Below are positions 3,150 to 28,852 of a DNA stretch of 59,829 nucleotides, piece after piece; positions within the stretch are counted from its first letter, which is position 1; each line of letters opens with the position of its first letter. The stretch covers positions 1 to 59,829 of the forward strand of contig QGNM01000006.1 in NCBI GenBank assembly GCA_003228095.2, in the 5' to 3' direction. Source of the DNA: Chloroflexota bacterium. GTDB lineage: Bacteria; Chloroflexota; Dehalococcoidia; Lucifugimonadales; UBA2962. Both the position numbers and the translations under genes were made by a program. A model generated the notes under the pieces. That model was given only the letters and a program-made list of their open reading frames with translations, was not told the origin of the DNA and did not search any database.

Positions 3150-3226
3150 GACCGATCCAGTTTGATTACACTCTAGTTTTTATGACATACATCTTTGCTC
3201 AGCTTACCTATCAACATTTCAAATAG

Positions 3227-3291
3227 TCAAGGTGTTATCTGCCTTGAATTGCATCCGCATGAAAAGTTTTCTGGTTTAGAGAAAAGTTTTC
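3227..3291. promoter_or_regulatory. operator-like repeats in the divergent TIR-like/ctp intergenic region
   Basis: Two identical copies of the odd palindrome GAAAAGTTTTC lie at 3261-3271 and 3281-3291. They are exactly 20 bp apart, about two helical turns, so they would face the same side of the DNA. A separate inverted repeat, TCAAGG (3227-3232) and CCTTGA (3242-3247), lies just to the left. The 268-bp gap separates divergently transcribed genes and contains no ORF. The arrangement looks like a pair of dimeric-regulator sites; the regulator is unknown. Confidence 0.45.
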
Positions 3292-3369
3292 CACGAGTTC
3301 ATATAAGACCATCCTAAGTTAGCTTTATTTTAAGATATCGAAGCAACACGAGTCACCTTATATATATCG

Positions 3370-3378
3370 TGCTAAAAT
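3370..3378 (+). promoter_or_regulatory. possible extended -10 promoter of the S41 protease gene
   Basis: The sequence TGCTAAAAT fits an extended -10 element (TGn followed by a TATAAT-like hexamer). It lies about 40 bp before the ATG, with no convincing -35. A ribosome binding site, AAAGGTG, follows nine bases ahead of the ATG at 3418. Confidence 0.3.
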
Positions 3379-3417
3379 TTTATGTAAGGGTTTATATGAA
3401 TAAAGGTGTGTCCTTAA

Positions 3418-4740
3418 ATGAATTTTGTTGACTTAATACTTAAAAGAATTGGAGTTGCGCTAAAGCCTGTTTTACTGCTTACGGTCATGCTCGTTTTATT
3501 GAGTTGCGGCATAGAGGTAGATAGAGGATCTTCAATAAACGATGTTGAAACTAACAATGAAGTAAATGCTGGGGATGATAATTTAGGATTCACAGAAACC
3601 GTATTTCAAGGAGAATCTTTGGAAGCCCCTTCTGATGTTGCAAAGGAGCTTACGATTATATGGGAGGCTTGGGCGATACTTACAAAAGACCATGTTGATC
3701 GTGCTGAACTAGACCCAAGGGCCATGTCAGAGGCTGCCATTCGCGGCATGCTTATAGCTCTCGGAGATCCTCATACTAATTATGTCCCTCCTGAAGCTTT
3801 TGCTATTGACTCTAATGATATTTTCCAAGGAGAGTTTGAGGGCATTGGAGCTCATGTTTCTATGAATCGTAGTGGGGTTTTAATAATTGTAGCTCCCATT
3901 CAGGGTAGTCCAGCAGAAAAGGCAGGGATACGACCTGGAGACCAAATACTAGGAGTGGATGGTATGTCCTTAGATGGTTATACCGTATTACAAGCTGTAA
4001 GTCTTATTAGGGGACCAAAGGGCAGTACAGTAAAGTTGCTAGTAAAACATTTAGGCGCAATTGATGCAATAGAAATTGAAGTTATTAGAGGAACCATACC
4101 TTTAGTCAGCGTATTGGTAAGAAGCCTTCCTGAGGATTCAGTGGCACATTTACGCATAACTAACTTTCATGACAACACAGCTAATGAGCTTACTCTTGCT
4201 TTAGATAAAGCTATTAAGAATGGTGCAAGCGGGTTGATCATTGACGTCAGAGATAACCCAGGAGGGACATTACAATCAGTTATAGATATAACAAGCAAAT
4301 TCTTAAATAAAGATTTGTTAATTGCATACCAGATTGATGCTTCTCAGAGGAGAACGGATTGGAAGGTTAAAGACGGCGGAAAATATGTAGACATCCCTTT
4401 AGTTGTATTAAGTAACTCGTTTAGCGCAAGCGCATCGGAGGTTCTGATTGGAGCATTCCAGGATAATAATAGAGCTACAATCATTGGTGATGTATCATTT
4501 GGTAAAGGAAGTGTAAATATGCTAAGACCCTTAAGTAATGGTGGGGGTATGTTTGTAACTACTTCACGATGGTTTACACCTAAAGGAAAGATGATACAAG
4601 GTGTTGGCATTGAACCTGACATACACATAACTGCTACAGATCCTACTGATGCCGACGTATTGCAATTAGAGGCAGCGCTTAAAGAAATACAGCAACTCAT
4701 AGAGGAAAGGGTATCGATTAACACAATTACTAAGATTTAA
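3418..4740 (+). CDS. ctpA: S41 family C-terminal processing peptidase, predicted lipoprotein
   Basis: This is a carboxy-terminal processing protease that trims or degrades exported proteins outside the cytoplasmic membrane. Residues 13-29 form a hydrophobic signal with a lipobox (LLSC), so Cys30 is the predicted lipidated residue and the enzyme is anchored on the outer face of the membrane. A PDZ domain spans roughly residues 140-225 (GSPAEKAGIRPGDQILGVDG). The S41 catalytic dyad is visible: Ser338 in SASASE and Lys363 in FGKGSV, 25 residues apart as in the family. At 440 aa the length is normal. The ATG start has an AAAGGTG site. smpB follows 27 bp downstream and may be co-transcribed. Confidence 0.93.
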   Translation: MNFVDLILKRIGVALKPVLLLTVMLVLLSCGIEVDRGSSINDVETNNEVNAGDDNLGFTETVFQGESLEAPSDVAKELTIIWEAWAILTKDHVDRAELDPRAMSEAAIRGMLIALGDPHTNYVPPEAFAIDSNDIFQGEFEGIGAHVSMNRSGVLIIVAPIQGSPAEKAGIRPGDQILGVDGMSLDGYTVLQAVSLIRGPKGSTVKLLVKHLGAIDAIEIEVIRGTIPLVSVLVRSLPEDSVAHLRITNFHDNTANELTLALDKAIKNGASGLIIDVRDNPGGTLQSVIDITSKFLNKDLLIAYQIDASQRRTDWKVKDGGKYVDIPLVVLSNSFSASASEVLIGAFQDNNRATIIGDVSFGKGSVNMLRPLSNGGGMFVTTSRWFTPKGKMIQGVGIEPDIHITATDPTDADVLQLEAALKEIQQLIEERVSINTITKI

Positions 4741-10385: not shown

Positions 10386-12107
10386 TTATTTCCTTCTCAC
10401 AAAATATGAGCCAATAGCTAACGTATCCATCTTTGTCCTCATAAAACTAGCTATAGCCTCTTTCGGAGTATTCACTATTGGTTCATTATCGTTAAAAGAA
10501 GTGTTTACAATTACAGGAATACCAGTCAAGTCGTAAAATCTCCTTATGAGTTTGTAATATTTCCTATTATTAGAAGCGTTTACCGTCTGGAGGCGAGCAG
10601 ACCCATCTACATGTGTTGGTGCAGGGATATCACGTACTTTGTTTGGATTAACTTGATATGTCATTTGCATAAAAGGTGACTGATAGTCTTGTTCAAACCA
10701 CTGGCCAGTAAACTCTTCCAGAATTGAAGGCGCAAATGGCCTAAATTCCTCTCTGTGTTTTATTCGCGAATTGAGAATATTTTTCATGTCAGCCCTACGC
10801 GGGTCAGCCACAATACTCCGGTTACCAAGCGCTCTTGGTCCCCACTCTGACCTGCCTTGGTACCATCCAACTATGTCTCCTTCCGAGATTCTTTCTGCCA
10901 CAGATTTTGCCAGCATATCTTCGTCCATCTCTAAATAATCTAGACCTGATGAAATTAGTGTGTCTTTAATCAAGTCTTCGGAGTATTCAGGCCCCCAATA
11001 TGCATGATCCATAACAAAATCATTTCGTTCATTACCCAAAACCTGATGATACAGGTATGCAGCTCCACCTATTGATAATCCTGCATCCCCTGCTGCCGGT
11101 TGAATATATATGTTTTCAAATGGTGTTTGGCTTAGTATTTTGCCATTAACAACACAATTAAATGCAACTCCGCCTGCATAACATAAATTACTAGACCCAG
11201 TTCTCTCATAAAGTTTATTAGCAATATCAATTATTATTTCTTCCAATCTAAATTGCATGCTGGCAGCTATATCATAATGGTGAGGTTTTAAAGGTTCATT
11301 TGAAAGTCGCGCTGGGCCTAAATCTCTTTCTAAGGCGTTACTAAACAGTTTAGGCATTACTGGCTTACCAGCACGCCAAGTTATATCAGGTCCAGATCTA
11401 TGATGATTAAAATATTCTAACTCTAAGTTATAATCCAACTCATTGGCGTGCCTAACTATTCTTCTGAACGTATCCATATATTTAGGCTTACCATAAGGAG
11501 CCAAGCCCATAACTTTATATTCATCTCCATAATTATTAAAACCTAAATATTGACAGATTGCTGAATAATAAAGTCCTAATGAATGAGGGAAAAAAGTTCT
11601 ACCCTCTATTTTCAGTTTATTGCCTGAACCTTTACCCCAAACCATACTGGAAAAGTCACCTAACCCATCAAGGGTTAAAATTGCTGAGTCTAAATGAGGT
11701 GAGCAATAAAATGCACTGGCTGCGTGAGCTATATGATGTTCAACAAAATTGAACTTGGCTTTAATATCATCTTTAGATACGCCACAAGCAATCGCAAGTT
11801 CTTCATTTACAGAACTAAATTTTTGCCACACATTCGCTCGTCTCAGTGCAAAACCAGGGGTTTTAATAGCCCAAAACAATTTTCGAAATAACTGAGCAGA
11901 TCTTTTACGTGGAATGGCAACATATGAGACATCTTGAATGTTAATACCAGCTTGTTTCAAGCAGTACCTCACTGCATGTGAAGGGAATCCTGCAGTGTGC
12001 TTGATTCTAGTAAATCTCTCCTCTTCAACAGCAGCTATCAATTTACCATTAAATAATATTGCTGCAGAAGCATCTGCATGATATGCGTTAATTCCTAAAA
12101 TATACAA
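10386..12107 (-). CDS. carbamoyltransferase, NodU/CmcH family
   Basis: 573-residue O-carbamoyltransferase of the NodU/CmcH/TobZ family, which uses carbamoyl phosphate and ATP to carbamoylate a hydroxyl, here probably on a sugar. The start ILGINAYHADASAAIL and EEERFTRIKHTAGFP are diagnostic. The metal-binding EHHIAHAASAF lies near residue 115, CYAGGVAFNCVVNGK near 310, and the C-terminal domain has GWYQGRSEWGPRALGNRSI and the NTSFNDNEPIV motif. Length is normal. It lies in the glycan operon, with 13 bp separating it from the preceding GT gene, which supports a role in polymer decoration. Confidence 0.93.
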   Translation of the reverse strand: MYILGINAYHADASAAILFNGKLIAAVEEERFTRIKHTAGFPSHAVRYCLKQAGINIQDVSYVAIPRKRSAQLFRKLFWAIKTPGFALRRANVWQKFSSVNEELAIACGVSKDDIKAKFNFVEHHIAHAASAFYCSPHLDSAILTLDGLGDFSSMVWGKGSGNKLKIEGRTFFPHSLGLYYSAICQYLGFNNYGDEYKVMGLAPYGKPKYMDTFRRIVRHANELDYNLELEYFNHHRSGPDITWRAGKPVMPKLFSNALERDLGPARLSNEPLKPHHYDIAASMQFRLEEIIIDIANKLYERTGSSNLCYAGGVAFNCVVNGKILSQTPFENIYIQPAAGDAGLSIGGAAYLYHQVLGNERNDFVMDHAYWGPEYSEDLIKDTLISSGLDYLEMDEDMLAKSVAERISEGDIVGWYQGRSEWGPRALGNRSIVADPRRADMKNILNSRIKHREEFRPFAPSILEEFTGQWFEQDYQSPFMQMTYQVNPNKVRDIPAPTHVDGSARLQTVNASNNRKYYKLIRRFYDLTGIPVIVNTSFNDNEPIVNTPKEAIASFMRTKMDTLAIGSYFVRRK

Positions 12108-13263: not shown

Positions 13264-14471
13264 TTATTGGATTCTAGCTTTACCACTAATTGATCAATTA
13301 ATTCATCAATTTTCTCGAACCTAGATTCCCAAGAATGATTACTAGCTTCTTCAATTCGATTATTAAGAGCTGTTTTAGATTTATTTGCAAGTGCTTTATC
13401 CAGCGATTCAACGTATTGGTCGGGCCGTGAAAACAAAGTCACGAGGTGATCAAACCGATCTAAATCAGGCAATCTTGTAGCCACTATAGGCGTTCCAGAA
13501 GCCAAGTATTCATAAAATTTAACGGGGCTCGCTCTTAAAGTTACATCATGAATTATGAAAGGTATTGTGGCGACATCAAAACCTTTTAAGTAGTTAGGTA
13601 TCGAACCATATGATTTTGGGCCCAGCATATGAATATTTGGAATGTCATGTATTAATGAAATGTCAGTGGTTATTGGGCCTATGAAAACGAAATTGTATCC
13701 CGGTTTTTCCCGGGCTGCATTTGCAATCATTTCAAAATCTAACCATTCAAAAATTGTACCCACGTATCCGATCACTGGTCCAGAGAAATCTTTGATCTCA
13801 GCTGGCACTTCAGTAGCATCTTCCAATGAAGATTTGAAATGATCAATATCTGCCCCATTAGTAATAGTATAAGTTTGCGGATTCATTGGCGCCTTGATCT
13901 CGGTTAGTTCTTCTGCAGTGCAAATAATTAAATCAGCTCTTGCTATAAGTTTTTTTTCTAGATCTTTAAATGATGAAGGGAAATTAGGCTGGCTTGAATA
14001 GTCATCACTACAATGATAAACAACCAACTTTGGATTCAGTCTCTCAATAATAGGCAAGGCAGTAGCAGTACCGACTATCACAACTGGGCTATCTAGTTTC
14101 AGGCTCTCACATAGGCTATTAATTAATCTCCTCGGTATAAACTGATTAATGGCCAACGTTAAACTGTTTGCCAAGAATGAAACCCCTGATCTATACGGGA
14201 ATACCGATGGGAAACAATGAATCCATAAGTTATTTTCAACTTTATTTGGACCAAAGATAAATCTTGTTAAAAGCCTTAATGCTTCTTTCATTCTTGTTAT
14301 GAACGAGAATAAATGAAACTGGCTCTCTACATATAAAACCGAATGCCCTAAGTTCGCCCAATATTTAGCTAGGTGATGTTTGCTAACCTGAGATGCTCCA
14401 TCCCAAGTAGGGCCATATAGTATTAAATATGAGTGTTTATTTCTTTCTGAAATCACTGATTCTTGGTTCAC
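13260..14471 (-). CDS. glycosyltransferase, GT-B type (TuaH-like)
   Basis: 403-residue glycosyltransferase resembling TuaH-like GT1/GT4 enzymes. It has an N-terminal domain with LILYGPTWDGASQVSKHHLA, the segment VVYHCSDDYSSQPN, a donor domain with GPVIGYVGTIFEWLDFE, and SPVKFYEYLASGTPIVAT carrying the KxYEYLA donor motif. No transmembrane helix is apparent. It overlaps the genes on both sides by 4 bp, so it is part of a continuously coupled block. Acceptor and donor are unknown. Confidence 0.88.
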   Translation of the reverse strand: MNQESVISERNKHSYLILYGPTWDGASQVSKHHLAKYWANLGHSVLYVESQFHLFSFITRMKEALRLLTRFIFGPNKVENNLWIHCFPSVFPYRSGVSFLANSLTLAINQFIPRRLINSLCESLKLDSPVVIVGTATALPIIERLNPKLVVYHCSDDYSSQPNFPSSFKDLEKKLIARADLIICTAEELTEIKAPMNPQTYTITNGADIDHFKSSLEDATEVPAEIKDFSGPVIGYVGTIFEWLDFEMIANAAREKPGYNFVFIGPITTDISLIHDIPNIHMLGPKSYGSIPNYLKGFDVATIPFIIHDVTLRASPVKFYEYLASGTPIVATRLPDLDRFDHLVTLFSRPDQYVESLDKALANKSKTALNNRIEEASNHSWESRFEKIDELIDQLVVKLESNK

Positions 14472-16501
14472 TTATCGTCTATTATTTCAAACACTGAAAA
14501 CTCCGCGACCTCTGTATTGCCGAAAGTTCTACTTTTAACAACATCTTCATCTCCAACATAGATCTTTTTCAAATTACCTTCTTTTTCTAATAATGCCATT
14601 AAAATGTATGGCCTTGCTTCAAACTCCACTCGCGTATTAACAGGTTTTTCTAAGTTATCTTGTAAAACGTTTAAATCGTCTATTAGATATCTTTCACCAT
14701 ACGAGTCATTAGCAAAGTCAATAAACTGGGGAGATACACCTACCCTACCCTGCAAGAGAATGTGAGTGACTCCCAACTCACTGAGCTTTTCGAACAATTC
14801 TCCTGAATTAGTCATTAAATGATACTGCAATTCACCTTGATATGCAGGTGATCCTAAGCTCCATGGATGATCCAAGTAATACCATCCAGACAGTCCCATT
14901 ATCAGTGTATTAGTGCTTGAATTAAGATTGTTGTTAATCCAGTTAACAGACTCAATATTGCTAACTTTACTCTCTATAAACTGATTTCGTGATTCTGCAC
15001 CAAAAACCACTGGAAAGAAAATTGAATTGAAAGAGATAGATATAACTAATGATCCAATCAATGATGCAGTTAACAGACCCACAACCGGTATATTTAACCA
15101 ATTTTGCTTTGTATCTAATATCAACTTGATACCAACAGCCGCTAGAAGAGCCAATACCGGGTAAACAATGTGGAAATACCTTGGGCTTTGATATCCGAAG
15201 AACCATATCAGGTATATAACAAATATAAAGACCAATATAGGCAGTATATATTTCCAGAACGCAGAATCTTTAATTGATTTGAATAAAAATATTCCTGGTA
15301 TAAATATAATTAGTATTGGAGTCAGCAGTGACCCTGTTAATGGGCCATGATCTACAGTGAAGAGATGGATCCGGTTGGTCAAATTCCAAGGACCTAAAAT
15401 AAAGTCTAGAATTGATTTACCAGGCCCACGATGCCAGCTCGAAAACTTCTCATGATGCCATTGCGTCCACATTTCACTATTGAAAATAGGATATCCCAAC
15501 GGCCAGAACGGATCGCCAGATTCAATAAAATTTCTTATTAGCCATGGCGATAAAATTACTAGCGATGTAAATATAAACATCCCTATCAGTAAAATTTTGT
15601 TTTTATCAAAGTATATGCCCCCAACACGCTTAGAAAATAAAATAAACCCCACCCCGGCTGGTATAGCCATAATCGCCCAGATTTTAGTAGAACCAGCTAC
15701 TCCTATTAAAAGACCACTAATCACAATCCAGCAAAAAGTTTTACCATTGATCGCATTACAAAGGGAATATAGAGCAAGTACTACAAAGAAAACTGCACAC
15801 ATCTCGACCATAGGAGATACGCTTAACTCGATTGACATCGGCAACGAATAAAATATGACAGCAGCCAGGAGGCCAACCTTCCAGTCAATTAATTTCCTTC
15901 CCAAGGCGAAAATTGCCAGCGTACTAAGTAATGAGAAAGCAAAGTGTGTCACCGCAGGCGCAATGTCATTAATTAATAAGATTTCAGTAACATAAGTAAT
16001 GTGCAGGAAACTGGGAACATTCCAAAATAAAATCGGAATGAATTCAAACTCACCTGTACGGGCATAATATTGTGAGGCCGCCAAATGGTGTCTAAGGGCA
16101 TCAGCCACCGAAGGGGGAGCAAGTGAACCAACAAGATTAAGTACTATTAAAATCATCAGAGGGATGGACAATAAGAACCATGCATTTTTTAAATCGAGTT
16201 GACGAAACCGGAAGAAATATCTTTTAACCGTTGATACACCAACAGGAAATTGAATTAAAGTAACGCATGCAACAAATATATATACAATACTGACTGACAA
16301 CACATTTAACTGACCGAATAACCCAACAAACAGTAATATAAAGTTAACTGTTGCAAATCCAAATGCTATATAAAACAGTCCCCTATCAAAGTCAGGCAGA
16401 CTCTGAAGCTCTACTTTTTTCAAAACCAGCCTTCCTAAGCCAATTGAGCCGAAAATAAGAGCTACCGTAAATATAAATGCGGCAAACATATCTATAGCCA
16501 A
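14468..16501 (-). CDS. GT-C type membrane glycosyltransferase (GT39/ArnT-like), paralogue 1
   Basis: Large protein of about 677 aa with roughly a dozen hydrophobic helices and a soluble C-terminal domain of about 170 aa. The first extracytoplasmic loop carries VADALRHHLAASQYY, with acidic and His/Arg residues typical of the polyprenyl-phosphate-sugar binding site in GT-C enzymes. The C-terminal domain has LGVTHILLQGRVG, a motif shared with its two paralogues. Such enzymes use lipid-phosphate-linked sugars on the outer membrane face. TTG 16501 is chosen because GGAG lies five bases upstream; ATG 16489 and TTG 16516 are alternatives. The gene begins at the stop codon of a small single-pass ORF and overlaps the next GT gene by 4 bp. 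Confidence 0.82.
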   Translation of the reverse strand: MAIDMFAAFIFTVALIFGSIGLGRLVLKKVELQSLPDFDRGLFYIAFGFATVNFILLFVGLFGQLNVLSVSIVYIFVACVTLIQFPVGVSTVKRYFFRFRQLDLKNAWFLLSIPLMILIVLNLVGSLAPPSVADALRHHLAASQYYARTGEFEFIPILFWNVPSFLHITYVTEILLINDIAPAVTHFAFSLLSTLAIFALGRKLIDWKVGLLAAVIFYSLPMSIELSVSPMVEMCAVFFVVLALYSLCNAINGKTFCWIVISGLLIGVAGSTKIWAIMAIPAGVGFILFSKRVGGIYFDKNKILLIGMFIFTSLVILSPWLIRNFIESGDPFWPLGYPIFNSEMWTQWHHEKFSSWHRGPGKSILDFILGPWNLTNRIHLFTVDHGPLTGSLLTPILIIFIPGIFLFKSIKDSAFWKYILPILVFIFVIYLIWFFGYQSPRYFHIVYPVLALLAAVGIKLILDTKQNWLNIPVVGLLTASLIGSLVISISFNSIFFPVVFGAESRNQFIESKVSNIESVNWINNNLNSSTNTLIMGLSGWYYLDHPWSLGSPAYQGELQYHLMTNSGELFEKLSELGVTHILLQGRVGVSPQFIDFANDSYGERYLIDDLNVLQDNLEKPVNTRVEFEARPYILMALLEKEGNLKKIYVGDEDVVKSRTFGNTEVAEFSVFEIIDDK

Positions 16502-16502
16502 T

Positions 16503-16658
16503 TCAGCTCCCAACAAACACTCGTTTTAGACCTGTGAAAATAATGTCTATTAAACCGCTAAATTGAGATAAGAAACCAATAATTACTATAAGAGACCAAA
16601 TAAGAAAAATGGTGCCTTTCCAAATAGTGGGTGAATTTCTTAAAACCTTATAAGTCAC
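16503..16658 (-). CDS. small single-pass membrane protein upstream of GT-C paralogue 1
   Basis: A 51-residue ORF starts at a GTG that overlaps the end of the GT2 gene by 11 bp. It ends at TGA 16505-16503, two bases before the TTG chosen for the GT-C gene. It has a basic N terminus, one membrane helix led by Trp (WSLIVIIGFL, residues 21-30) and a short amphipathic tail ending GLKRVFVGS. The same organisation occurs twice more in this operon (22199-22366 and 24170-24328), with shared Trp-led helices. That repeated context is the main reason to call it a gene. It may be an accessory subunit of the transferase. A distant relation to DUF5989-type small proteins of sugar-modification clusters is possible but unproven. 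Confidence 0.62.
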   Translation of the reverse strand: MTYKVLRNSPTIWKGTIFLIWSLIVIIGFLSQFSGLIDIIFTGLKRVFVGS

Positions 16659-17571
16659 TTTTATGAGATTCCAATGACACTCTTAATGCTGATACCTGTT
16701 CAGCTACAGCTCCGATTAGAAAGATTATTATCGCAGAAACAGCCAAAAATACGGCTGAGTTTGGTATATACAAACGATTTTCGTTTAAAAGTGCCAAAAC
16801 GAATGAAACCACCGCTAATATGAACAAACATATTGAAGTAGGGAAAAAAACTTTCATCGGCTCAAAAAGAATTACCATCTTGCCAATGATGATAAGGAAC
16901 CGCATTCCATCACGAATAGGGTTTAGTTTACTTTTACCGATTCGTTTCTGAGCTACGATAGGCACAAATTTCACAGTGTAACCAGCTTTTATAAATGCCA
17001 TTGTGCTCGTAGTTGGGTAAGAAAATCTATTAGGCAGCAGATGCACAAACCCCTTGATTACATCTAGCCGGAAACCTCTGAAGCCTGAGGTTAGATCTTT
17101 TATCTTAAATCCTGTTAAATAAGATGCGATTACATCAAATGTTAAATTAGCCAGCCTTCTAGGCCAGAAACCTTTTGATTTAAAATCTCTTGACCCGACT
17201 ACCAAATCATATTGATCTAAATTAGCAGTCAATTTCAGAATATCTTTAGGATCGTGCTGCATGTCTGCATCCATTAATACAATATATTTACCTTGTGCGT
17301 GCCTAATACATGACTTAACTGCAGCTCCATTACCAAGATTGTATGGATGCTTAATCACTTTCAACAAACCGTCCATAATATCAATCATTGACTCAAGTTT
17401 TTCTGAAGTACCATCGGTAGACCCATCATCCACTACTAAAATTTGATAATTCGGATATACGTCAACCAAAGCATCCCTAATAGCAGTCAGAACAGATTCA
17501 ATAGCCTGAATTTCGTTATATACAGGTAATCCTATGATTAAATCAACTGAATTTTTTTTATCTTTAGGCAT
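16648..17571 (-). CDS. GT2 family polyprenyl-phosphate glycosyltransferase (DPM-synthase-like) with membrane tail
   Basis: 307-residue GT-A enzyme. IIGLPVYNE and VVDDGSTDGTSEKL bind the nucleotide sugar, VLMDADMQHDPKD carries the metal-binding DAD motif, and LTSGFRGFR is typical of dolichyl/polyprenyl-phosphate mannose or glucose synthases. Two hydrophobic helices at the C terminus (about residues 232-256 and 265-290) anchor it. It probably makes a polyprenyl-phosphate sugar that the GT-C enzymes of the same operon consume. The stop overlaps the small membrane ORF. AGGAG lies upstream of the ATG. Confidence 0.9.
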   Translation of the reverse strand: MPKDKKNSVDLIIGLPVYNEIQAIESVLTAIRDALVDVYPNYQILVVDDGSTDGTSEKLESMIDIMDGLLKVIKHPYNLGNGAAVKSCIRHAQGKYIVLMDADMQHDPKDILKLTANLDQYDLVVGSRDFKSKGFWPRRLANLTFDVIASYLTGFKIKDLTSGFRGFRLDVIKGFVHLLPNRFSYPTTSTMAFIKAGYTVKFVPIVAQKRIGKSKLNPIRDGMRFLIIIGKMVILFEPMKVFFPTSICLFILAVVSFVLALLNENRLYIPNSAVFLAVSAIIIFLIGAVAEQVSALRVSLESHKSDL

Positions 17572-17645
17572 ATGTACATTCGCTCCTAATTAACTAATTT
17601 CCTACTGACGGTATAGATATCTTTCATTTATATAGTTTTTCTATA

Positions 17646-18413
17646 TTAAACAGTAGCTAGCTTGTTTGAAATCAGCACTACGGTTTCATATGGGAAAAAC
17701 GGCACTCCCGATTTCATCCCCTTATACCTCTTGATCATCAACCCGCTATCAAGCAAAGCCTTTTGATAGCGGCGACGTTTACTGTCATCAAATAAAACGA
17801 TCCCACCAGGTTTTAGTTTGGGTGTGGCTAATTTTAAACACGCAGACCTGCATCTACCATCTATAGCTATTAAGTCAAATTTCTCATCTATTTTGTTAAT
17901 TGCATTGACATAACTATTGAAGTTCAATCCTTTATAACCTGGTTTTTTAGAAATGTATTCAGAATCGAATATATCCATTTTTTCATCTGGGGGAACAGTT
18001 ATTAATTCGACATTTCTATAATTAGATATCAATTTTTGTGTTGTCTTTGACCATTCAACATCATGCTCCATGGTATAAACCTTTTTAGAGCGCCTCGCTA
18101 ACCAAACAGTGCTTGCGCCACTACCCCACTCTAGCACTACTGCTTCCCCTGACAGGTCGTTTAGATAATTATTTATATGATCGACCGCACCAAACGACCA
18201 CCAGGGTAAATCAAGTTTCACTAAGTCAGCCGCATCAAATATTGAAAATAATGATCGTATATATAGAATCCATCTGAAATCTGAATACCGCTCTAAAACC
18301 CAAATGATTCCAATTAAAGTTAATAAATACTTTAATATTTTGATCATCTGTACGTAAGCTGTAACAGAAACCTTGTAAATTATGTCAATTAAATTCTTTG
18401 CACCTTCAGGCAT
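17646..18413 (-). CDS. membrane-anchored class I methyltransferase-like protein, tandem copy 1
   Basis: 255-residue protein with an N-terminal hydrophobic segment (about residues 25-40, YLLTLIGIIWVLERY) and a Rossmann-type SAM-binding domain: VLEWGSGASTVWLA is motif I, VYTMEHD the acidic strand-2 end, and FDLIAIDGRCRSACL with GGIVLFDDSKR the later core. This resembles the Methyltransf_24-type domain. The substrate is unknown; a sugar or lipid-linked glycan is plausible from context. It is about two-thirds identical to its neighbour at 18487-19242, and part of the two genes is almost identical at DNA level. About 74 bp of noncoding sequence separate it from each flanking gene. Confidence 0.78.
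   Translation of the reverse strand: MPEGAKNLIDIIYKVSVTAYVQMIKILKYLLTLIGIIWVLERYSDFRWILYIRSLFSIFDAADLVKLDLPWWSFGAVDHINNYLNDLSGEAVVLEWGSGASTVWLARRSKKVYTMEHDVEWSKTTQKLISNYRNVELITVPPDEKMDIFDSEYISKKPGYKGLNFNSYVNAINKIDEKFDLIAIDGRCRSACLKLATPKLKPGGIVLFDDSKRRRYQKALLDSGLMIKRYKGMKSGVPFFPYETVVLISNKLATV
18210..18314. repeat. near-identical 105-bp patch shared with 19051-19155
   Basis: The segment encoding the RWILYIRSLFSIFDAADLVKLD part of copy 1 matches 19051-19155 in copy 2 with only two differences that I can see, both near the right end. The surrounding parts of the two genes are much more diverged. A second identical run of about 35 bp (around 17787-17821 and 18627-18660) encodes the GGIVLFDDSKR region. 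The pattern suggests gene conversion or strong local constraint after a tandem duplication. Confidence 0.8.
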
Positions 18414-18486
18414 CTAACACTTAACTCCTAGTATCGGCTTTAATCAGTATTCTGCCCAAACAATTTAGTCAACTATCATGTCGATA

Positions 18487-19242
18487 TTAACCAGAATTAC
18501 TGTCTTTTGACATAAGTACTGAGGTCTCATATGTGAAATACGGTAAACACGGAACCATCCCTTTATAACGCTTTAGAGTTAGATCACTGGCTGCTAAAGC
18601 TTCTTGGTTTCGATCTCTTTTACTATCATCAAATAAAACGATCCCACCAGGTTTTAGTTTGGAAATCGCCACTTTTAAACATGCTGACTTACAGCGACCA
18701 TCTATTGCAATTAAATCAAATTGCGCATCTATATCGTTTATTGAATCAACATAATTTTTAAAACTTAATCCCCGATGGCCAGGTTTATTAGAAATATACT
18801 CTGCCTCAAACATGTCCACTGTGTTGTCAGGAGGAATAGTTATAAGTTTGACATTTTTATATTTAGTAATTAAATTTTTTGTAGTTTTCGCCCACTCAAT
18901 ATCATGCTCTAGGCTATAGACTTTTGCTGAGCGCTTTGCCAGCCATGCAGTACTTGCACCACTTCCCCACTCAAAAACCACTGCTTTACCGGACAAAGAA
19001 CTTAGGTGCCTCTCTAAATGATCAATTGCACCAAACGACCACCAAGGCAGATCAAGTTTCACTAAGTCAGCCGCATCAAATATTGAAAATAATGATCGTA
19101 TATATAGAATCCATCTGAAATGTGAGTACCGCTCTAAAACCCAAATGATTCCAATGAGCGTTAACAAAGATTTGAAAAATCTAACACCAAATACATATAA
19201 ACTGACAGAATAGCGGTCGATCCCATCAATTATTGCTTTCAT
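18487..19242 (-). CDS. membrane-anchored class I methyltransferase-like protein, tandem copy 2
   Basis: 251-residue paralogue of the preceding gene with the same layout: hydrophobic N-terminal segment (SLLTLIGIIWVLERY), motif I VFEWGSGASTAWLA, VYSLEHD, FDLIAIDGRCKSACL and GGIVLFDDSKR. The N-terminal halves are almost identical; the C-terminal tails differ (MVPCLPYFTYETSV here against MKSGVPFFPYETVV). Two divergent copies suggest related but different acceptor positions, or dosage. The ATG overlaps the stop of the LPG-synthase-like membrane gene by 4 bp. Confidence 0.78.
   Translation of the reverse strand: MKAIIDGIDRYSVSLYVFGVRFFKSLLTLIGIIWVLERYSHFRWILYIRSLFSIFDAADLVKLDLPWWSFGAIDHLERHLSSLSGKAVVFEWGSGASTAWLAKRSAKVYSLEHDIEWAKTTKNLITKYKNVKLITIPPDNTVDMFEAEYISNKPGHRGLSFKNYVDSINDIDAQFDLIAIDGRCKSACLKVAISKLKPGGIVLFDDSKRDRNQEALAASDLTLKRYKGMVPCLPYFTYETSVLMSKDSNSG
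19051..19155. repeat. second copy of the 105-bp patch (with 18210-18314)
   Basis: This is the partner of the near-identical segment in the neighbouring paralogue, in the same orientation and the same codon frame, within the second methyltransferase-like gene. Two mismatches were seen over 105 bp. Confidence 0.8.
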
Positions 19243-20291
19243 TTATTATCTATTCCTTTACCGATTATTTGTTTTTTTACACTCTGCAATGAATTCATCT
19301 TAATGAATGATAAGGCAGTAGTAGAAAAAAACAATACAAAAAGTTCTCCTAAAATCCACCAAACCCGGCCTAAAGCCGCCAATGCTACTGCAGCTCCGGT
19401 AGGCATCACTTGCTCCATTAATACGACTAACATAGCTTCCCGCACTCCTATTCCACCGGGAGCAAAAACTACCAACAATCCGACAGCCCAAGATAAAGTA
19501 AATGCACCCATCACAAATGGCATTTCAGCATATCCGATAGGATAAACAGATTTCGCTAACATAAAAAACCCTACGCCCATAATAATCCACCTGATAGTGT
19601 TAAAAATGATTAGCCATATTAACCATTTATATGTAAATCTTGTTGTATCAACGCCTCCAATTTTGTTACCTAGCCACCTAACAGGCATAGGATTAATAAA
19701 CAGGATCGCTAGTATAAAACCAATTGTTATAGCGGCGATATATAGTCCCCCATAATTGGCTGAGATGTTATCTATAAACGTCGCTACAGACTTACTTCCC
19801 GTAACATTCGTTAACGCAACGAGAGTAACTATTCCTGCAGTTACCAGAAGTAAAGAGATCTCAATTATGGTGCTTAAAAATGCCGTTCGCCGTGTAATCC
19901 CCTCCGAGGCTGACAACTCTAATCTGGCAACAAAATGAATGCCAAGGCCAGGTATGTATTTCCCCAATTGAGCTTTAGCCCAAATTTGAATTATTTTCAA
20001 TAAAGAAAACTGATCAGTCATGCTTCTTAAAATTAAAGACCAGCCGTAGGCGAAAAGCATGAAAGTTACAAATAAAATGGGGATTGAACCTACACTCCAT
20101 CCAACTTTAATGTTCCCGAAATAACCACCCAATTCAGGTAAAGACTCATTTATTTTTAAACCAATAAAAGTCAGCCCGGCAGCAGTAAATAGAATAGTTA
20201 AGATAAACTTAACCTCTTTCTTAGACACGAATTGTATTAGTTGTTGCGCCAATTTAATAAGTGTGATCTTTATACCGTCAATTTGAATCAA
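19239..20291 (-). CDS. LPG-synthase-type (UPF0104) integral membrane protein
   Basis: 350-residue protein with about eight hydrophobic helices and the family signature APGGIGVREAMLVVLM near the C-terminal third, plus LGKYIPGLGIHFVARLE. This is the lysylphosphatidylglycerol synthase transmembrane/AglD-like family. Some members flip lipids; others are linked to polyprenyl-phosphate sugar metabolism. It lacks the soluble GNAT-type aminoacyl transfer domain of MprF, so lysyl-PG synthesis is unlikely. It overlaps both neighbours (4 bp and 14 bp). Because no Wzx flippase is seen in the window, it is a candidate for moving a lipid-linked sugar; this is inference. Confidence 0.82.
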   Translation of the reverse strand: MIQIDGIKITLIKLAQQLIQFVSKKEVKFILTILFTAAGLTFIGLKINESLPELGGYFGNIKVGWSVGSIPILFVTFMLFAYGWSLILRSMTDQFSLLKIIQIWAKAQLGKYIPGLGIHFVARLELSASEGITRRTAFLSTIIEISLLLVTAGIVTLVALTNVTGSKSVATFIDNISANYGGLYIAAITIGFILAILFINPMPVRWLGNKIGGVDTTRFTYKWLIWLIIFNTIRWIIMGVGFFMLAKSVYPIGYAEMPFVMGAFTLSWAVGLLVVFAPGGIGVREAMLVVLMEQVMPTGAAVALAALGRVWWILGELFVLFFSTTALSFIKMNSLQSVKKQIIGKGIDNK

Positions 20292-22194
20292 TGATTTGTC
20301 CTTTTACATCACAAACCTTAATCTGATCATTTTCGTATATAACGTCCCATTTACTAGAACAAAGATGATGTAGTGATTCTTCCAGCCAAACTGCAGGTTC
20401 ATAATAAGTCCCGCCTTTAAAGTCAGGCCACAGAACTACGAAGTCAATATTCCTATCCTCTACCCTTGAAACTACATACTGAGGATCTTTCAACCTTTCA
20501 GTATTAAGTTCATTCTGGGCGATCAAAAAATACCTCTCATATACAAAGTTTAGGTAGTAACCACGGCCTTCATGTAACAACAACTTGCTGCTAGGCGGCA
20601 GGATCTCATTAAGATGAATATACTCTTCGTACCAATAAAATTTTAAATCGTCTTGTACAAGTCGATTTATTAAAAATTCCTGCTCAGTTTTGACACCAAG
20701 TGTTTCCAATACTGCATCGTAGTGAAACCGAAAATGAGTTCCTATACCGAAAAGAACCCATGTCAATAACAATAAACCGACAAATGTTTTAAAGGTGAAG
20801 CTCAATATACGGGGTAAATTAATATCAAGCCATAGCTTATACATTCCATAACCCCCCGCAACGGTAAGCAATGAAATTATGGGTATCAGCGACCTTAGTC
20901 TGGGGAACGAAAAATACCATATGGCGCACGATATCAGTGCTATCAAAACATATTTTCTTAATTGGTCATTTAAACCAGTAACAAACATGGCGGGTATGCT
21001 AGCAAGTATGAATGGTCCGTAAACGCCGCTACGAAAATTATGTGGATTAAAAGTTAAATCCCAAGGAGATGAGATTATCCATTGCAAAGAAGTGATTGAT
21101 CCACCCAGCACCCTTGACTCAGTGCCTGACAAATAAGCTGCAGAAGCCTGAGTAAAATCCTTGGCTCCAAAAACATCGAATAAAAACGGCCATACGGGAT
21201 TGCCAGTCATGACAAATGCTTTAATTAACCAAGGTAAAACCATAAGAAATGCGATCCCAGCTACTAACATACCTGAAGTTATTGCTCGAAAAGGATCAAT
21301 CTGTTTATCGCGCAGTCCGTAAATAATAATGCATACAGTAAGTGCGATGGCCCCATAAGCCCCAGTCAGTCGGGACCCAGCAGCAAAGAAACCTGCCAGA
21401 AGTCCAATCAATAGCAGCCACCTATCATTTTTAGTATCAAGCCACAGTTTGAGAGCCGTAAAACTCAAAAATAAGAACACTGAATTAGCTAAATCAGGAA
21501 CAGCTCTTGCAGAAAGCACAACCACGTCACTTGCACAATAAATTATGATTCCTATGGCAAGTGCTACTGTGAAAGGCATAAAGCGTCTGGCAAAATCAAT
21601 TACCGATAATATAAATATAACCCCCATCGCCCATTGAATGACTTGGCTTGCTGAGTCACTGCCCAGTGACATGCCCCACATTTGAAGCATCATAACCAAT
21701 TGTGGCTGTTGATGAGAAAAATTGGATGGAATATAAACAAAGCCTTGTTCTTTTAGGTAAGTGGATGCGTTGGCTACCCTGTAAATTAATTCATCCACAC
21801 CAGTAACTGGAGCTAGGGCCGCAAATAAATTCAGAATTGCTAGTACCGATATAAAAAATATAAGTAGGATATCTAAATGGCTCAGATTATAAAACCAAGA
21901 CTTTAACTGTTTAAAGCAACCTAAGTTAAAAGGAGAGAGTAGGAACCATGATAGGGATGCGGTAGCACTTAACACGGATCCCGCTAATATTAAGTTTAAA
22001 GTGGACAATTGTTGTCCCCATGCGAGACCGAATGGTACAAATGACACAGCTCCTAAACCTACGCCAGTGGCTAGTAAGGTGTGTTGTATCCCGTCCGATG
22101 CTCGCAACCGCGTCAGGTGTAAAACAACCAACCCTATCCCGCTTCCTATCAAAAGCAGAGCACCGACGATTAGTAGATTTAGAAAATTCTCCAT
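20278..22194 (-). CDS. GT-C type membrane glycosyltransferase, paralogue 2
   Basis: About 638 aa with a dozen or so hydrophobic helices and a soluble C-terminal domain. The first large loop has TGVDELIYRVANASTYLKEQG, with acidic residues as expected for lipid-phosphate-sugar binding in GT39/ArnT-like enzymes, followed by an HQQPQLV segment. The C-terminal part has RNIDFVVLWPD, matching the GVTHILL motif of paralogue 1 in position. ATG 22194 is preferred over TTG 22233 because it sits four bases after the stop of the small membrane ORF and gives an N terminus (MENFLNLLIVGALL) like that of its paralogues. It overlaps the LPG-type gene by 14 bp. Confidence 0.82.
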   Translation of the reverse strand: MENFLNLLIVGALLLIGSGIGLVVLHLTRLRASDGIQHTLLATGVGLGAVSFVPFGLAWGQQLSTLNLILAGSVLSATASLSWFLLSPFNLGCFKQLKSWFYNLSHLDILLIFFISVLAILNLFAALAPVTGVDELIYRVANASTYLKEQGFVYIPSNFSHQQPQLVMMLQMWGMSLGSDSASQVIQWAMGVIFILSVIDFARRFMPFTVALAIGIIIYCASDVVVLSARAVPDLANSVFLFLSFTALKLWLDTKNDRWLLLIGLLAGFFAAGSRLTGAYGAIALTVCIIIYGLRDKQIDPFRAITSGMLVAGIAFLMVLPWLIKAFVMTGNPVWPFLFDVFGAKDFTQASAAYLSGTESRVLGGSITSLQWIISSPWDLTFNPHNFRSGVYGPFILASIPAMFVTGLNDQLRKYVLIALISCAIWYFSFPRLRSLIPIISLLTVAGGYGMYKLWLDINLPRILSFTFKTFVGLLLLTWVLFGIGTHFRFHYDAVLETLGVKTEQEFLINRLVQDDLKFYWYEEYIHLNEILPPSSKLLLHEGRGYYLNFVYERYFLIAQNELNTERLKDPQYVVSRVEDRNIDFVVLWPDFKGGTYYEPAVWLEESLHHLCSSKWDVIYENDQIKVCDVKGQIIDSN

Positions 22195-22198
22195 CGAT

Positions 22199-22366
22199 CT
22201 AAAAGCCCGTAATGTATTCAAAGAGATTGGCAATTTGTATTCGCCTATTAATTAGGAGGTCAATAAAAAAATAAATATTGATCAATACGAACCAAACACA
22301 AGTAAAACTCAACAATAATGGCTTAGCGTTTATGTCTCTTTTTAATAATAGTTTTCTAATCATCAT
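22199..22366 (-). CDS. small single-pass membrane protein upstream of GT-C paralogue 2
   Basis: A 55-residue ORF whose ATG forms a classic ATGA overlap with the TGA of the preceding GT-C gene; an ATG six codons earlier is the alternative. The stop is four bases before the ATG of GT-C paralogue 2. It has a basic N terminus (IRKLLLKR), a Trp-led helix (VWFVLINIYFF, Trp25) and a tail ending YITGF. The helix closely parallels VWVVLIFAFYFF in the ORF at 24170-24328, with Trp at the same residue number. The family is unrecognised; the coupling and the resemblance support a real gene. Confidence 0.65.
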   Translation of the reverse strand: MMIRKLLLKRDINAKPLLLSFTCVWFVLINIYFFIDLLINRRIQIANLFEYITGF

Positions 22367-24162
22367 CGTAACTCGTACAAACATTGGTCGTTACTGCAAA
22401 TTAACTTCAGTAGAAATTCATTTTGGAAACCTTTACTAGTAAGCCACGCGAATTCATGCCCACGTTCATTAACAACGAAATCATTTATATAAACGTGAGT
22501 CACTCCATTTTGTTGCAATAATGCAACAAAATCATTCGCGTTACTCAGGTCATGAGGGGTTTGAGCGAAACTCAATAGAGGTCTATTTAAATAAAAACCA
22601 TTTGACGCCCCCGGGGATGCAATAACTGATTCTTCGTTTGTTAAGTCATTGGATGCCCGTATTATTTCCCAGCTAGGGTAACGACTAAAGTTTCCAAGGT
22701 TTCTTGTGAAGTATTCCCGATCGTCGATTATATTTAAAGACCTCTGCACTGTTTCTATAGATACAAAATTTATATGAGTCCAAGTTGCTGTAGCAACTGA
22801 CGATGCAAGCAACAGGAGTATGATAATAAAAAATCCTAATCTCGGACTTGAAATAGACAACCTATTTATGACATATCCGACTGTCAAAGACATTAATCCT
22901 AAAGCGGGAAGGATATGTCTTGCTCGCTGAACAACGAAAAATGAAATCAACAACACTACTAACCCGTATAAGTTAATGTGCCATATCTTAGTGTCTATAT
23001 TTCTTAACAAAATGACACACGGCAAAATTGATAAAAATATAGGCCCAATAGATTTGCCATTAGGACCTTCAATCGAATTAGAGTTTCCTAGCATCGACAT
23101 ATCCCATACATATATGAAGAATCCATAAAACCCACTTTCTCCAGCTAAACCTAAGCCTGAAAATCCTAGTGAGCTATCTATAACCACCGAGCGAACAACC
23201 CAGACTAAACCTGGCAATGCAAGCACAATGATAGATGAAAAACTAACCAACCATGTTTTTAATGGCACATTTTTATCTGAATATAATCTGTAAACCACTG
23301 CTATAGCTAACATAATCGCTGTAAAGGCAGTTGCATGTTTAGTTCCAAATGCAACACCCAAGAAAAAGCCGGTTATAATTAACCACCTCCAATCTCTCTG
23401 GTTTCTTCTAGTAAAGTACCATTGAGAAAATGTCATGATAGAAATTATCTCGAAAGCAGCCCATGCAAGATCCACTTTCACAGAAGCTGAAAGAACCGCC
23501 ACCGATGCCATTGAATACCAAATAAAAACGCCAATTAATGAAATCCTTGAAGTAAATAATTTGGTACCTATTGAATATAATCCTAAAGCAGCCAAAACTC
23601 CCATAACCCATACCGTCAAAAGTTGAGCCACAATCTGCCCTTTTAGTGAAAACCCTAGTACCGCTATCAATTGTCCGTTTGCGGGAAACAGGTTGGTATA
23701 TGCATAAGTTGCAGAAAATACTCTACCTTGCTTAGCAAAATCTCGTGCAACAAGTAGATATCCTGCCAATGAATCTCCATCCAATGTGGGGGCTAATGCA
23801 ACTAAAAGATACAGAATACTAAGTATCCCGATACCTAGCAAAATCAATTTGTCTAAAACTGATGAAGGGAGTAACTGAGAAACTCGTTGATCTTTGAAAA
23901 CCGGTTTATGTAATACAAAGCCCAAAATACCCAATATCGACATACAGACCACTGTAAGCCATCCCTGCAGAGTTGAGAAAGATCCTGTAAATCCACAAAT
24001 CATTTGTATGTAGATTAAGACTCCAACGCCCAGCCCTATCGACAGTACAAAATTAATAACTCGAGATTCAGTGCGCATACTTAAAGTGTTTATAATTAAA
24101 CGACCGGTAGCCCAAGCAGATACAATTACAGCGAAAGTGATAAATAGATCAAGTATGAACAT
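22363..24162 (-). CDS. GT-C type membrane glycosyltransferase, paralogue 3
   Basis: 599-residue multi-spanning protein with the same plan as the other two GT-C genes. The N-terminal helix MFILDLFITFAVIVSAWATGRL is followed by a first loop, TLDGDSLAGYLLVARDFAKQG, with acidic residues in the expected catalytic region, then many helices and a C-terminal domain with QNGVTHVYINDFVV. Likely donors are polyprenyl-phosphate sugars made by the GT2 enzymes at 16648 and 26699. The ATG is 7 bp after a small membrane ORF, and the stop overlaps the next small ORF, so translation is probably coupled through the whole block. Confidence 0.82.
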   Translation of the reverse strand: MFILDLFITFAVIVSAWATGRLIINTLSMRTESRVINFVLSIGLGVGVLIYIQMICGFTGSFSTLQGWLTVVCMSILGILGFVLHKPVFKDQRVSQLLPSSVLDKLILLGIGILSILYLLVALAPTLDGDSLAGYLLVARDFAKQGRVFSATYAYTNLFPANGQLIAVLGFSLKGQIVAQLLTVWVMGVLAALGLYSIGTKLFTSRISLIGVFIWYSMASVAVLSASVKVDLAWAAFEIISIMTFSQWYFTRRNQRDWRWLIITGFFLGVAFGTKHATAFTAIMLAIAVVYRLYSDKNVPLKTWLVSFSSIIVLALPGLVWVVRSVVIDSSLGFSGLGLAGESGFYGFFIYVWDMSMLGNSNSIEGPNGKSIGPIFLSILPCVILLRNIDTKIWHINLYGLVVLLISFFVVQRARHILPALGLMSLTVGYVINRLSISSPRLGFFIIILLLLASSVATATWTHINFVSIETVQRSLNIIDDREYFTRNLGNFSRYPSWEIIRASNDLTNEESVIASPGASNGFYLNRPLLSFAQTPHDLSNANDFVALLQQNGVTHVYINDFVVNERGHEFAWLTSKGFQNEFLLKLICSNDQCLYELR

Positions 24163-24169
24163 CTGGAGT

Positions 24170-24328
24170 CTAAACGCCTTTTAAAATATCCTTAAGTGTT
24201 GGCCAGATTTCTTCAAATTTATAGAAAAAATAAAAGGCGAAAATTAAAACGACCCATACTATGCCTAAAAAACTTGAAGTCCAGCTTTCTCTTAACAAGC
24301 TAAGGTGCCGCAGTTTCATATTTTTCAT
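24170..24328 (-). CDS. small single-pass membrane protein upstream of GT-C paralogue 3
   Basis: A 52-residue ORF fills the gap between a methyltransferase gene (13 bp before its ATG) and the GT-C gene (7 bp after its TAG). A second ATG lies three codons in. The N terminus is basic (MKNMKLRHLSLLRE), a single aromatic-rich helix starts at Trp25 (VWVVLIFAFYFFYKF), and the tail is EEIWPTLKDILKGV. It has the same size, topology and genomic position as the ORFs at 16503-16658 and 22199-22366. It leaves the operon with almost no noncoding sequence here. The family is unrecognised. Confidence 0.65.
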   Translation of the reverse strand: MKNMKLRHLSLLRESWTSSFLGIVWVVLIFAFYFFYKFEEIWPTLKDILKGV

Positions 24329-26698: not shown

Positions 26699-27601
26699 TT
26701 AATTTTGCCTAGTTGTAGGTAATCGCTTATTAATCATCTCGGCTAGAAGTCCCATTACCGCAATTTGAATGCCCAAAACAACCAAAATAGTACTAGTAAC
26801 ATCAGCTAATTGACCCAACATAAACCGACTGATTAAAGCCCATCCTATTGCAATCAAAATACAAATAAAACTGACTGGCATAAAAAATTTCAAAGGTGCG
26901 AAATATAAACCCATTCTTAAAATTAGAGTCACAAAATTTATAGTGTCACTAAAAGGTCTAATTTTAGAATTACCTATTCTTGCCTCATAATCTATTGCCA
27001 TATAATCGACCCGAAAGCCATTAGTTAATAAAGCCAATGTTATTGTGGTTGTGAAAGAGAATCCATTCGGCAATATGCCTGAATATTGCTTTGCATGAGT
27101 CTTTTTAAAGATACGAAGGCCTGAATTTAAGTCAGGTATAGAAATGCCTGCAATTGATTCTGCTATTTTAGTTATAACAAACTTAGCTGGGCGCCGAATT
27201 AATGGTATTTTTACTATATCACCTGTCCTAGAACCTACAGCCATGTCAGCGCCATGTGAGACAAGGGAAAGAAGGTCCGGTATAACCTTCGAAGGGTATG
27301 TTCCATCCCCATCAGTAATACATATATGATCATACTTAGCAACTCGAATACCTGATTTAATAGCTGCTCCATAGCCTCGATTAAACTCATGTTCAACAAC
27401 TATAACTTCAGCTTTGTCAGCTATATCAGAAGTTCGGTCAGTTGAAGCATCATCAACAACAATTATTTCATATTTCAAACCTGATTGTTTTAAAGTTAGT
27501 TCGAGGTCGTGTATAACTGAAAGAATGCCTCCTTCTTCATTAAAGCAAGGAATTATCACCGATATCTCTTCGATTGGATAAACTTTATTCTTAATTTTCA
27601 T
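26699..27601 (-). CDS. GT2 family polyprenyl-phosphate glycosyltransferase with membrane tail
   Basis: 300-residue GT-A enzyme with VIIPCFNEEGG, VVDDASTDRTSDIA, the EFNRGYGAAIKSGI loop, CITDGDGTYPSKV (DGD-type metal motif) and a C-terminal pair of hydrophobic helices (about 236-256 and 265-285). This fits dolichyl/undecaprenyl-phosphate glucose or mannose synthases. With the GT2 enzyme at 16648 it gives two lipid-phosphate-sugar makers for three GT-C transferases. It lies 9 bp from the toroid protein gene and 15 bp from the GT4 gene, in the same operon. Confidence 0.9.
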   Translation of the reverse strand: MKIKNKVYPIEEISVIIPCFNEEGGILSVIHDLELTLKQSGLKYEIIVVDDASTDRTSDIADKAEVIVVEHEFNRGYGAAIKSGIRVAKYDHICITDGDGTYPSKVIPDLLSLVSHGADMAVGSRTGDIVKIPLIRRPAKFVITKIAESIAGISIPDLNSGLRIFKKTHAKQYSGILPNGFSFTTTITLALLTNGFRVDYMAIDYEARIGNSKIRPFSDTINFVTLILRMGLYFAPLKFFMPVSFICILIAIGWALISRFMLGQLADVTSTILVVLGIQIAVMGLLAEMINKRLPTTRQN

Positions 27602-27616
27602 TTGTTCAGAACACTT

Positions 27617-28852
27617 TTATTCTTTCTGGATTGCATTTATTTCATAAATGACTGACTCATATAGGTTTTGTATTTGTTCTATATGGCTTTCGACTTTAAA
27701 TTTACTTAATGCCCTAGCTCTTCCAGCATCACCTAATTGAGCTCGTGAAACTTTGGATTCGATCAATGACATTAATTCACTTGACAAAGATAGTACGTCA
27801 CCAGGCTTACAAAAATAAGCACATTTGTCTCCCATTATTTCTCTACTAGGGCCAATGTCAGACACAACAACTGGAACAGACATAGACATTGCTTCTAAAA
27901 GAGATCTAGGACATCCTTCAGGTTTTTTACTAGGCGCTACAAGGATATCCATTGAGCCCACATATGGAGCTACATCCGATTGATACCCTGTAGTTTTAAA
28001 ACACTCTTCCAGTTTCAGCTTTCTTAGGTGCCTTTGTAATTTCTCTTGGTTGTCTAGTGGAAGGCCAAAAAGAATTTTAATTTTACCCTTTAATGTATCT
28101 ACATACCCATCTGGAGCGCCACCGCCAACTATCATAAAAGTTACGTTTGGAAATCTTTTATTTATTATCTTTGCAGCATCAGCAAGTACAAAATGTCCTT
28201 TTACTTTCTGCACAGAACCTAAAATTCCAACAATGACATTATTTTTCTTAAAACCAAATAATGAATTAATGGTTTCTCTGTATTTAAACTTATATTTTGG
28301 GTCAAAAGTCGATGTGTTCACAGGGTTATGAACCACAGATATCTTTGTCAGTCTAGGCAAACAATCAGCCACATAATAGGAAACGGCAATCACTCTGTAC
28401 GAAAGGAAACATATTAATCTGGCCAATAACATTCCGAATAAGGTTCCTGGATTTACAACTTCTCTAACATGCCAAATAATCGGTACTTTTTCTAACCGAG
28501 CTGCAATTCCAATTGGAAGTAGAGCGCTTGTATTTAAATGAATAAAATCAGGATTTTCAATTTTTATTAATTTTCGTGCAGTAATTATCGTAGGAATGAA
28601 ATGTACAATCAAGTTAATTATCGACCTTAAATTTAATGGTACATGAGCTCCATATGCCATAGCGGCTCGCATCTTAACTACTGAAGATTTAAGGCCCATT
28701 TGAATGGACATGTCTAACATAGGTCCGTGTTCAGTAAATACTACATGAGGGTAATATATTTTTGTATCTAAACTAGCCGCCAAATTAACCATGCTAACTG
28801 GCGCTCCACCAATACCTCCTCCTGAATGTATGAATAAAATCTTAGATGCCAT
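27617..28852 (-). CDS. glycosyltransferase family 4 protein
   Basis: 411-residue GT-B enzyme. The N-terminal domain starts ILFIHSGGGIGGAPVSMVNLA, a common GT4 acceptor-side loop. The middle has WHVREVVNPGTLFG and VVHNPVNTSTF. The donor domain has VGILGSVQKVKGHFVLADA and APSKKPEGCPRSLLEAMSMSVPVVVSDIG, carrying the E-x7-E motif. Its start shares one base with the end of the heparinase gene (TAATG), showing tight coupling. It is a cytoplasmic nucleotide-sugar dependent transferase; the linkage is unknown. Confidence 0.9.
   Translation of the reverse strand: MASKILFIHSGGGIGGAPVSMVNLAASLDTKIYYPHVVFTEHGPMLDMSIQMGLKSSVVKMRAAMAYGAHVPLNLRSIINLIVHFIPTIITARKLIKIENPDFIHLNTSALLPIGIAARLEKVPIIWHVREVVNPGTLFGMLLARLICFLSYRVIAVSYYVADCLPRLTKISVVHNPVNTSTFDPKYKFKYRETINSLFGFKKNNVIVGILGSVQKVKGHFVLADAAKIINKRFPNVTFMIVGGGAPDGYVDTLKGKIKILFGLPLDNQEKLQRHLRKLKLEECFKTTGYQSDVAPYVGSMDILVAPSKKPEGCPRSLLEAMSMSVPVVVSDIGPSREIMGDKCAYFCKPGDVLSLSSELMSLIESKVSRAQLGDAGRARALSKFKVESHIEQIQNLYESVIYEINAIQKE

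Follow-up and report, generated by a model that had tools for sequence, protein, structure and literature searches.

The window, by which we mean the whole stretch of 59,829 nucleotides that was analysed (contig QGNM01000006.1 of a Chloroflexota bacterium, an uncultured marine organism of the SAR202 type), carries a sugar-polymer operon in which three genes for large membrane glycosyltransferases, GT-C A, GT-C B, and GT-C C, are each preceded by a short ORF, here named sA, sB, and sC (Table 1). The preliminary description of this sequence had reported three single-pass ORFs of these lengths ending within a few bases of the GT-C starts, and all three were present on the minus strand at those places, with stop-to-ATG gaps of 7 (sA), 4 (sB), and 13 nt (sC). 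The likely GT-C starts are ATG 24162, ATG 22194, and ATG 16489, which were preferred over longer TTG frames. A Trp had been placed at residue 25 in two of the ORFs, which is true for sA and sB, and it is residue 21 in sC. The remark that each helix begins with this Trp stands in part: the Trp lies in the hydrophobic stretch, but a few residues inside it rather than at its very start.

Table 1. Features of the operon in the window (TM0, first helix of the fused GT-C polypeptides).
Feature	Coordinates	Strand	Description	Evidence
sA	24170..24328	-	52 aa, single-pass, probable detached TM0 of GT-C A	frames open in G002/G003/G004; counterparts in G005 and the Gemmatimonadota MAG; dN/dS 0.15-0.39
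sB	22199..22366	-	54-55 aa (window ORF 55 aa), single-pass, probable detached TM0 of GT-C B	start overlaps GT-C A stop
sC	16503..16658	-	51 aa, single-pass, probable detached TM0 of GT-C C	GTG start overlaps GT2 gene end
GT-C A	22363..24162	-	599 aa, PMT_2, predicted ArnT fold, starts directly at TM1	PF13231 34.7 bits; model pLDDT 87.7; ArnT Z 24.6 over residues 100-599
GT-C B	20278..22194	-	638 aa, homologous to A and C	PMT_2 22.5 bits, below cut-off; 41% identity to G005 B
GT-C C	14468..16489	-	673 aa	PMT_2 41.7 bits; 28% identity to G005 C
GT2	16648..17571	-	DPMS-like, probable maker of a polyprenyl-phosphate sugar donor	PF00535 115 bits
GT2	26699..27601	-	AglJ/DPMS-like	TIGR04182 E 7.6e-35, below equivalog cut-off
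UPF0104-type membrane protein	19239..20291	-	LPG_synthase_TM, between GT-Cs	PF03706 39.4 bits
GT4	27617..28852	-	without TM0, homologue of the TM0-tailed G087 GT4	28% identity over G087 GT4 residues 38-431
NodU-type carbamoyltransferase	10386-12107
Methyltransf_24 paralogue	17646-18413
Methyltransf_24 paralogue	18487-19242

The genome belongs to a family of which five genomes, all of one genus, were examined, and three relatives (G002, G003, and G004) had GT-C orthologues with approximately 77-81% identity. These genomes are incomplete MAGs; G001 (79% complete) was without the locus, and the contig of G002 ends within GT-C B. Orthologues of the small ORFs were open, in frame, and at the same places in all three relatives. 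The dN/dS values (Nei-Gojobori) were 0.15-0.56 across all small-ORF pairs and 0.21-0.39 between the window and its relatives. For each of the seven pairs, the same substitutions were placed at random 2,000 times, and BLOSUM conservation reached or exceeded the observed level in 0-0.5% of these trials. The three ORFs also fill operon gaps of 158, 168, and 179 nt, which are the only ones above 80 nt in a run of 21 genes. By these measures of the coding sequence, the three short ORFs are real genes under purifying selection.

By profile and homology, the partners of the three small proteins are classed as GT-C glycosyltransferases of the PMT_2/ArnT-like type, with A and C above the curated PMT_2 (PF13231) cut-off of 26.1 bits and B below it. 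Asp130 of GT-C A, located in the first outer loop immediately after the first helix of the core, is an acidic residue that was invariant across 37 aligned sequences and presumably has a catalytic role. The operon also contains GT4 genes, two DPMS/AglJ-like GT2 genes, and a UPF0104-type membrane protein, a gene set that would suit a polyprenyl-phosphate-sugar pathway in which the GT2 products may supply the donor.

In a census of 250 genomes of the SAR202 order to which the window belongs, eight had this GT-C type at E <= 1e-20, and these eight together with one Gemmatimonadota MAG provided 20 close GT-C homologues. In all 20 cases, a single-pass helix with a Trp ended -14 to +4 bp from the GT-C start; in 18 it was a separate small ORF, and in the other two (G061 and G087) it formed the C terminus of the upstream GT4. 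The recurrence of a short conserved ORF upstream of related GT-C genes, which had been put forward as a check, was thus observed at the close starts, at two of them in the GT4-attached form, with the frames intact in the relatives, and the refuting outcome named beforehand (no such ORF, or broken frames) did not arise. All of the close homologues (20/20) likewise had the end of a hydrophobic ORF between -50 and +60 nt from the gene start; among the controls this was so for 2/31 fused or TM0-less homologues (Fisher p 3e-12 against 20/20), 0/9 distant PMT_2 genes, and 1/17 other genes of the operon. Both hits among the 31 were ORF ends without the Trp motif, and the fused homologues carry no separate copy. 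The alignment of the G087 GT4 with the window GT4 stops before the TM0 extension, and the further 67 residues contain the helix. The loci L092 (rc 2453-4013) and L093 (2-1499) show this arrangement, a GT4 with a C-terminal Trp helix directly before a TM0-less GT-C, so that the helix is attached to a different enzyme.

The Gemmatimonadota sequence is a groundwater MAG (Gemmatimonadetes, L159) that has all three GT-Cs, A, B, and C, each with its own upstream small ORF. Its GT-C B shares 55% identity with that of the SAR202 genome G005, and its sB counterpart shares 36% identity with G005 sB (E 4e-10), which suggests transfer between phyla or mis-binning. A scan of genome contigs with GT-C A alone gave no matches, and the MAG was obtained by a scan with the B alignment. 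A direct search of 197 genomes of the order with an HMM of the small family gave strong matches only within the genus and, beyond it, G005 sA alone (E 0.32), because the small proteins are too short; the small ORFs were located instead by searching for the GT-C and then reading upstream.

Searches at class and phylum level added approximately 30 more distant GT-C homologues. Most of these have an N-terminal helix that the split GT-Cs do not have, and 18 show the motif W......AYY..[HQ]KP. When each small protein was concatenated with its GT-C, the product aligned end to end and in register with the fused GT-Cs, and the Trp column was invariant in 18/18 clear fused sequences and in 16/16 separate or GT4-attached ones. 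An aligner is free to place the helix, and therefore the similarity between the small proteins and the fused helix was tested by profile. The 16 small proteins matched the fused TM0 (hhalign) with a probability of 71% and a score of 24.3, compared with 30% and 19.3 for the best of 53 decoy windows taken from the same GT-Cs. By type, the probabilities against the fused TM0 were 73% for A, 28% for the GT4 tails, 21% for C, and 5% for B, whereas the GT4 tails matched the A, B, and C small proteins at 69%, 83%, and 79%, respectively, so that at profile level the tails link the three types. In single-sequence HMM scores, most B-type small proteins were not above shuffles and several others were only modest; this test is weak, and the comparison of profiles against decoy windows was therefore relied on instead. 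We consider homology of the small proteins to the fused helix likely, moderate by profile alone and weak for the B type. As the profile alone does not prove it, we base the case on the combination of position, mutual exclusion, and topology.

Other members of the family extend this picture. Six homologous GT-Cs (L121, L123, L125, L124, L131, and L138) lack TM0 both as a fused and as a separate helix, and TM0 is therefore dispensable in part of the family and not universally required. The suggestion that the small proteins may be obligate subunits was accordingly upheld in part: the constant pairing and the coding selection agree with it among the close homologues, and the homologues without TM0 in any form speak against it for the family as a whole. 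In Gemmatimonadota, L165-L169 and L175 have a fused N-terminal helix without Trp at the same place (for example, AAHLYV...GPLLILDHLF), and therefore fused forms are widespread.

The model of a fused homologue (L133, pLDDT 92.8) places TM0 as a helix at residues 4-29. The nearest solved fold of both this core and that of GT-C A was ArnT (PDB 5EZM and 5F15; Z 22-25), with Z 22.4 for L133 and 438 residues aligned for GT-C A, and the modelled GT-C fold of both proteins is thus of the ArnT type. The PDB matches start at approximately residue 100 in GT-C A and 147 in L133, which leaves TM0-TM3 mostly outside the match. The charges of the small proteins were +51/-21 on the N side and +39/-34 on the C side of the helix, and those of the GT-Cs were +1/-5 at the N terminus and +45/-16 after TM1. 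Such charges fit an N-in/C-out small protein and an outside GT-C N terminus; the same topology would be left by stripping TM0 from a fused enzyme.

The genes, selection, linkage, colinearity, mutual exclusion, and ArnT-type fold were all observed. On this basis, we believe that each small protein is probably the detached N-terminal helix (TM0), together with a short amphipathic tail, of the ArnT-fold GT-C encoded downstream. In the wider family the GT-C polypeptide itself starts with TM0, whereas in the SAR202 lineage this helix would have become a separate gene that was retained through duplication into the paralogues A, B, and C. With its basic N terminus the small protein is expected to be N-in/C-out, and the almost uncharged N terminus of the GT-C should lie outside, so that the pair would restore the topology of the fused enzyme. 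The stop and start codons overlap or almost touch, which makes coupled translation in nearly equimolar amounts probable. The small protein would be inserted first and then pack on TM1-TM3 of the nascent GT-C, completing the N-terminal extension ahead of the ArnT-like core. We infer that it would act as a structural subunit required for folding and stability, and its association, its stoichiometry, and a need for it in activity are presumed in this scheme.

The order of events was considered with a tree of the GT-C core alone. Separate and GT4-attached states fell together with a TM0-less group (branch support 93/88), nearly all fused states lay elsewhere, and the state labels needed 4 changes compared with a shuffled mean of 19.5. 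A single fission before the duplication into A, B, and C is the simplest reading of this unrooted tree. The opposite order, in which a separate subunit was ancestral and was later fused to the GT-C and, independently, to GT4, would leave the working mechanism unchanged; the unrooted tree fits either direction, and attachment of the helix to GT4 did happen. However, the fused forms are far more widespread, occurring in many families of the phylum and, without Trp, in Gemmatimonadota, whereas separate forms are limited to one order and one MAG. We regard this order as unlikely, although it deserves some weight.

It is also unlikely, in our opinion, that the small proteins are independent accessory subunits or assembly chaperones (in the style of PIG-X or Ost4) that resemble the fused TM0 by chance. 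Strict linkage and coding selection would be expected of such subunits as well, and the weak individual HMM scores, above all in the B family, are in their favor. Against them, the separate form and the fused N-terminal helix are mutually exclusive, both occupy the same place before TM1 with an invariant Trp, and the pooled profile score exceeds that of all decoy windows. As the enzyme itself bears a similar helix at its N terminus in most relatives, the small proteins are probably detached parts of the enzyme and not the extra chaperones that had been suggested.

Programmed +1 frameshifting, which would fuse each small ORF with its GT-C into one protein, would agree with the same +1 frame relation in all three adjacent or overlapping pairs, but we consider it very improbable. 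In G002, G003, and G004, a stop codon immediately precedes the ATG in the frame of GT-C B, and the stop contexts vary among homologues, on which grounds this candidate was rejected; moreover, the GT-Cs have start codons of their own, and the stop/start overlaps in G005 and G087 are ordinary. Short ORFs commonly arise by chance, but chance ORFs or assembly frameshift errors are hardly credible here and are refuted by the observed conservation, since six genomes of the order share this architecture with one MAG from a different phylum, for three paralogues and under purifying selection; the opinion of the preliminary description that chance could hardly explain three such ORFs is borne out by the in-frame orthologues, dN/dS, random-substitution trials, gap filling, and linkage.

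Split membrane enzymes have been described in other systems. For example, subunit IIa of bacterial ba3-type (B-type) cytochrome oxidases is a single helix of 34-41 aa that is encoded directly upstream of the larger subunit, is often unannotated, and has been described as the N-terminal helix missing from that subunit (PMC3128077). It was not detected where the large subunit has its own second helix; its sequence showed the authors no similarity to the fused helix, and its polarity is opposite (PMC3128077). By analogy, this appears to be the closest precedent: in both cases a single-helix gene lies directly upstream and is exclusive with a fused helix. In contrast, the GT-Cs are a different enzyme class, the helix of sA/sB/sC is colinear with the fused one and moderately similar by profile, three paralogous copies occur in one operon, and the helix is GT4-attached in two genomes. 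In Split-Doa10, gene fission in a yeast genus has produced two multi-helix fragments that are separately translated (PMC3464245). Our case is likewise a polytopic membrane protein that would have been split by gene fission, but the first helix alone is detached, and the protein is a bacterial glycosyltransferase. GPI mannosyltransferase I, PIG-M/PIG-X (Gpi14/Pbn1), is a GT-C that needs a membrane partner, and PIG-X/Pbn1 has been described as an accessory subunit (PMC9306709). The likeness lies in a GT-C with a membrane partner, and the difference is that PIG-X/Pbn1 is not described as a helix of the enzyme. Ost4 is a very small single-helix partner of STT3, the GT-C catalytic subunit of oligosaccharyltransferase; it is not known to occur as a fused N-terminal helix of STT3.

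Small single-pass proteins of the DUF5989/SxtJ type are found in glycan or carbamoyl-transfer clusters, and a link to DUF5989-like proteins had been raised for the present ORFs. The sA, sB, and sC proteins are also small and single-pass, but none of them matched DUF5989 in Pfam or NCBIfam up to E = 1, and the two Pfam matches of sA were sub-threshold and at chance level. Membership of DUF5989 or another known small family was dropped in the absence of a Pfam or NCBIfam match.

In the open-access literature we found no GT-C with a detached helix, which does not prove that none has been described. These GT-Cs, with the first helix as a separate and easily missed gene of approximately 50 aa and in triplicate, may represent a class of split membrane enzyme that has so far gone unrecognised. 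If small ORFs are discarded during annotation, such GT-Cs would be left one helix short, and the large GT-C gene may fail when expressed alone in a heterologous host. The fused, separate, and GT4-attached forms are a natural experiment on the contribution of a single helix to a GT-C, and the reading as detached TM0 predicts pairwise specificity, which is directly testable. With much less confidence, we speculate that TM0 may be a docking helix that can be moved between proteins, having been detached in three enzymes of one operon and, in two genomes, joined to the C-terminal end of a GT4 that is cytoplasmic. Enzymes that build the glycan in the cytoplasm would thereby be held at the membrane GT-C as an assembly line, and each small protein would be specific to its own GT-C; we think this rather doubtful.

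Two further features of the operon were noted. The NodU-type carbamoyltransferase has no small gene beside it, and its adjoining gaps are 13 and 19 nt. The tandem Methyltransf_24 paralogues are 69% identical and may be a recent duplication, because G003 and G004 have a single copy there.
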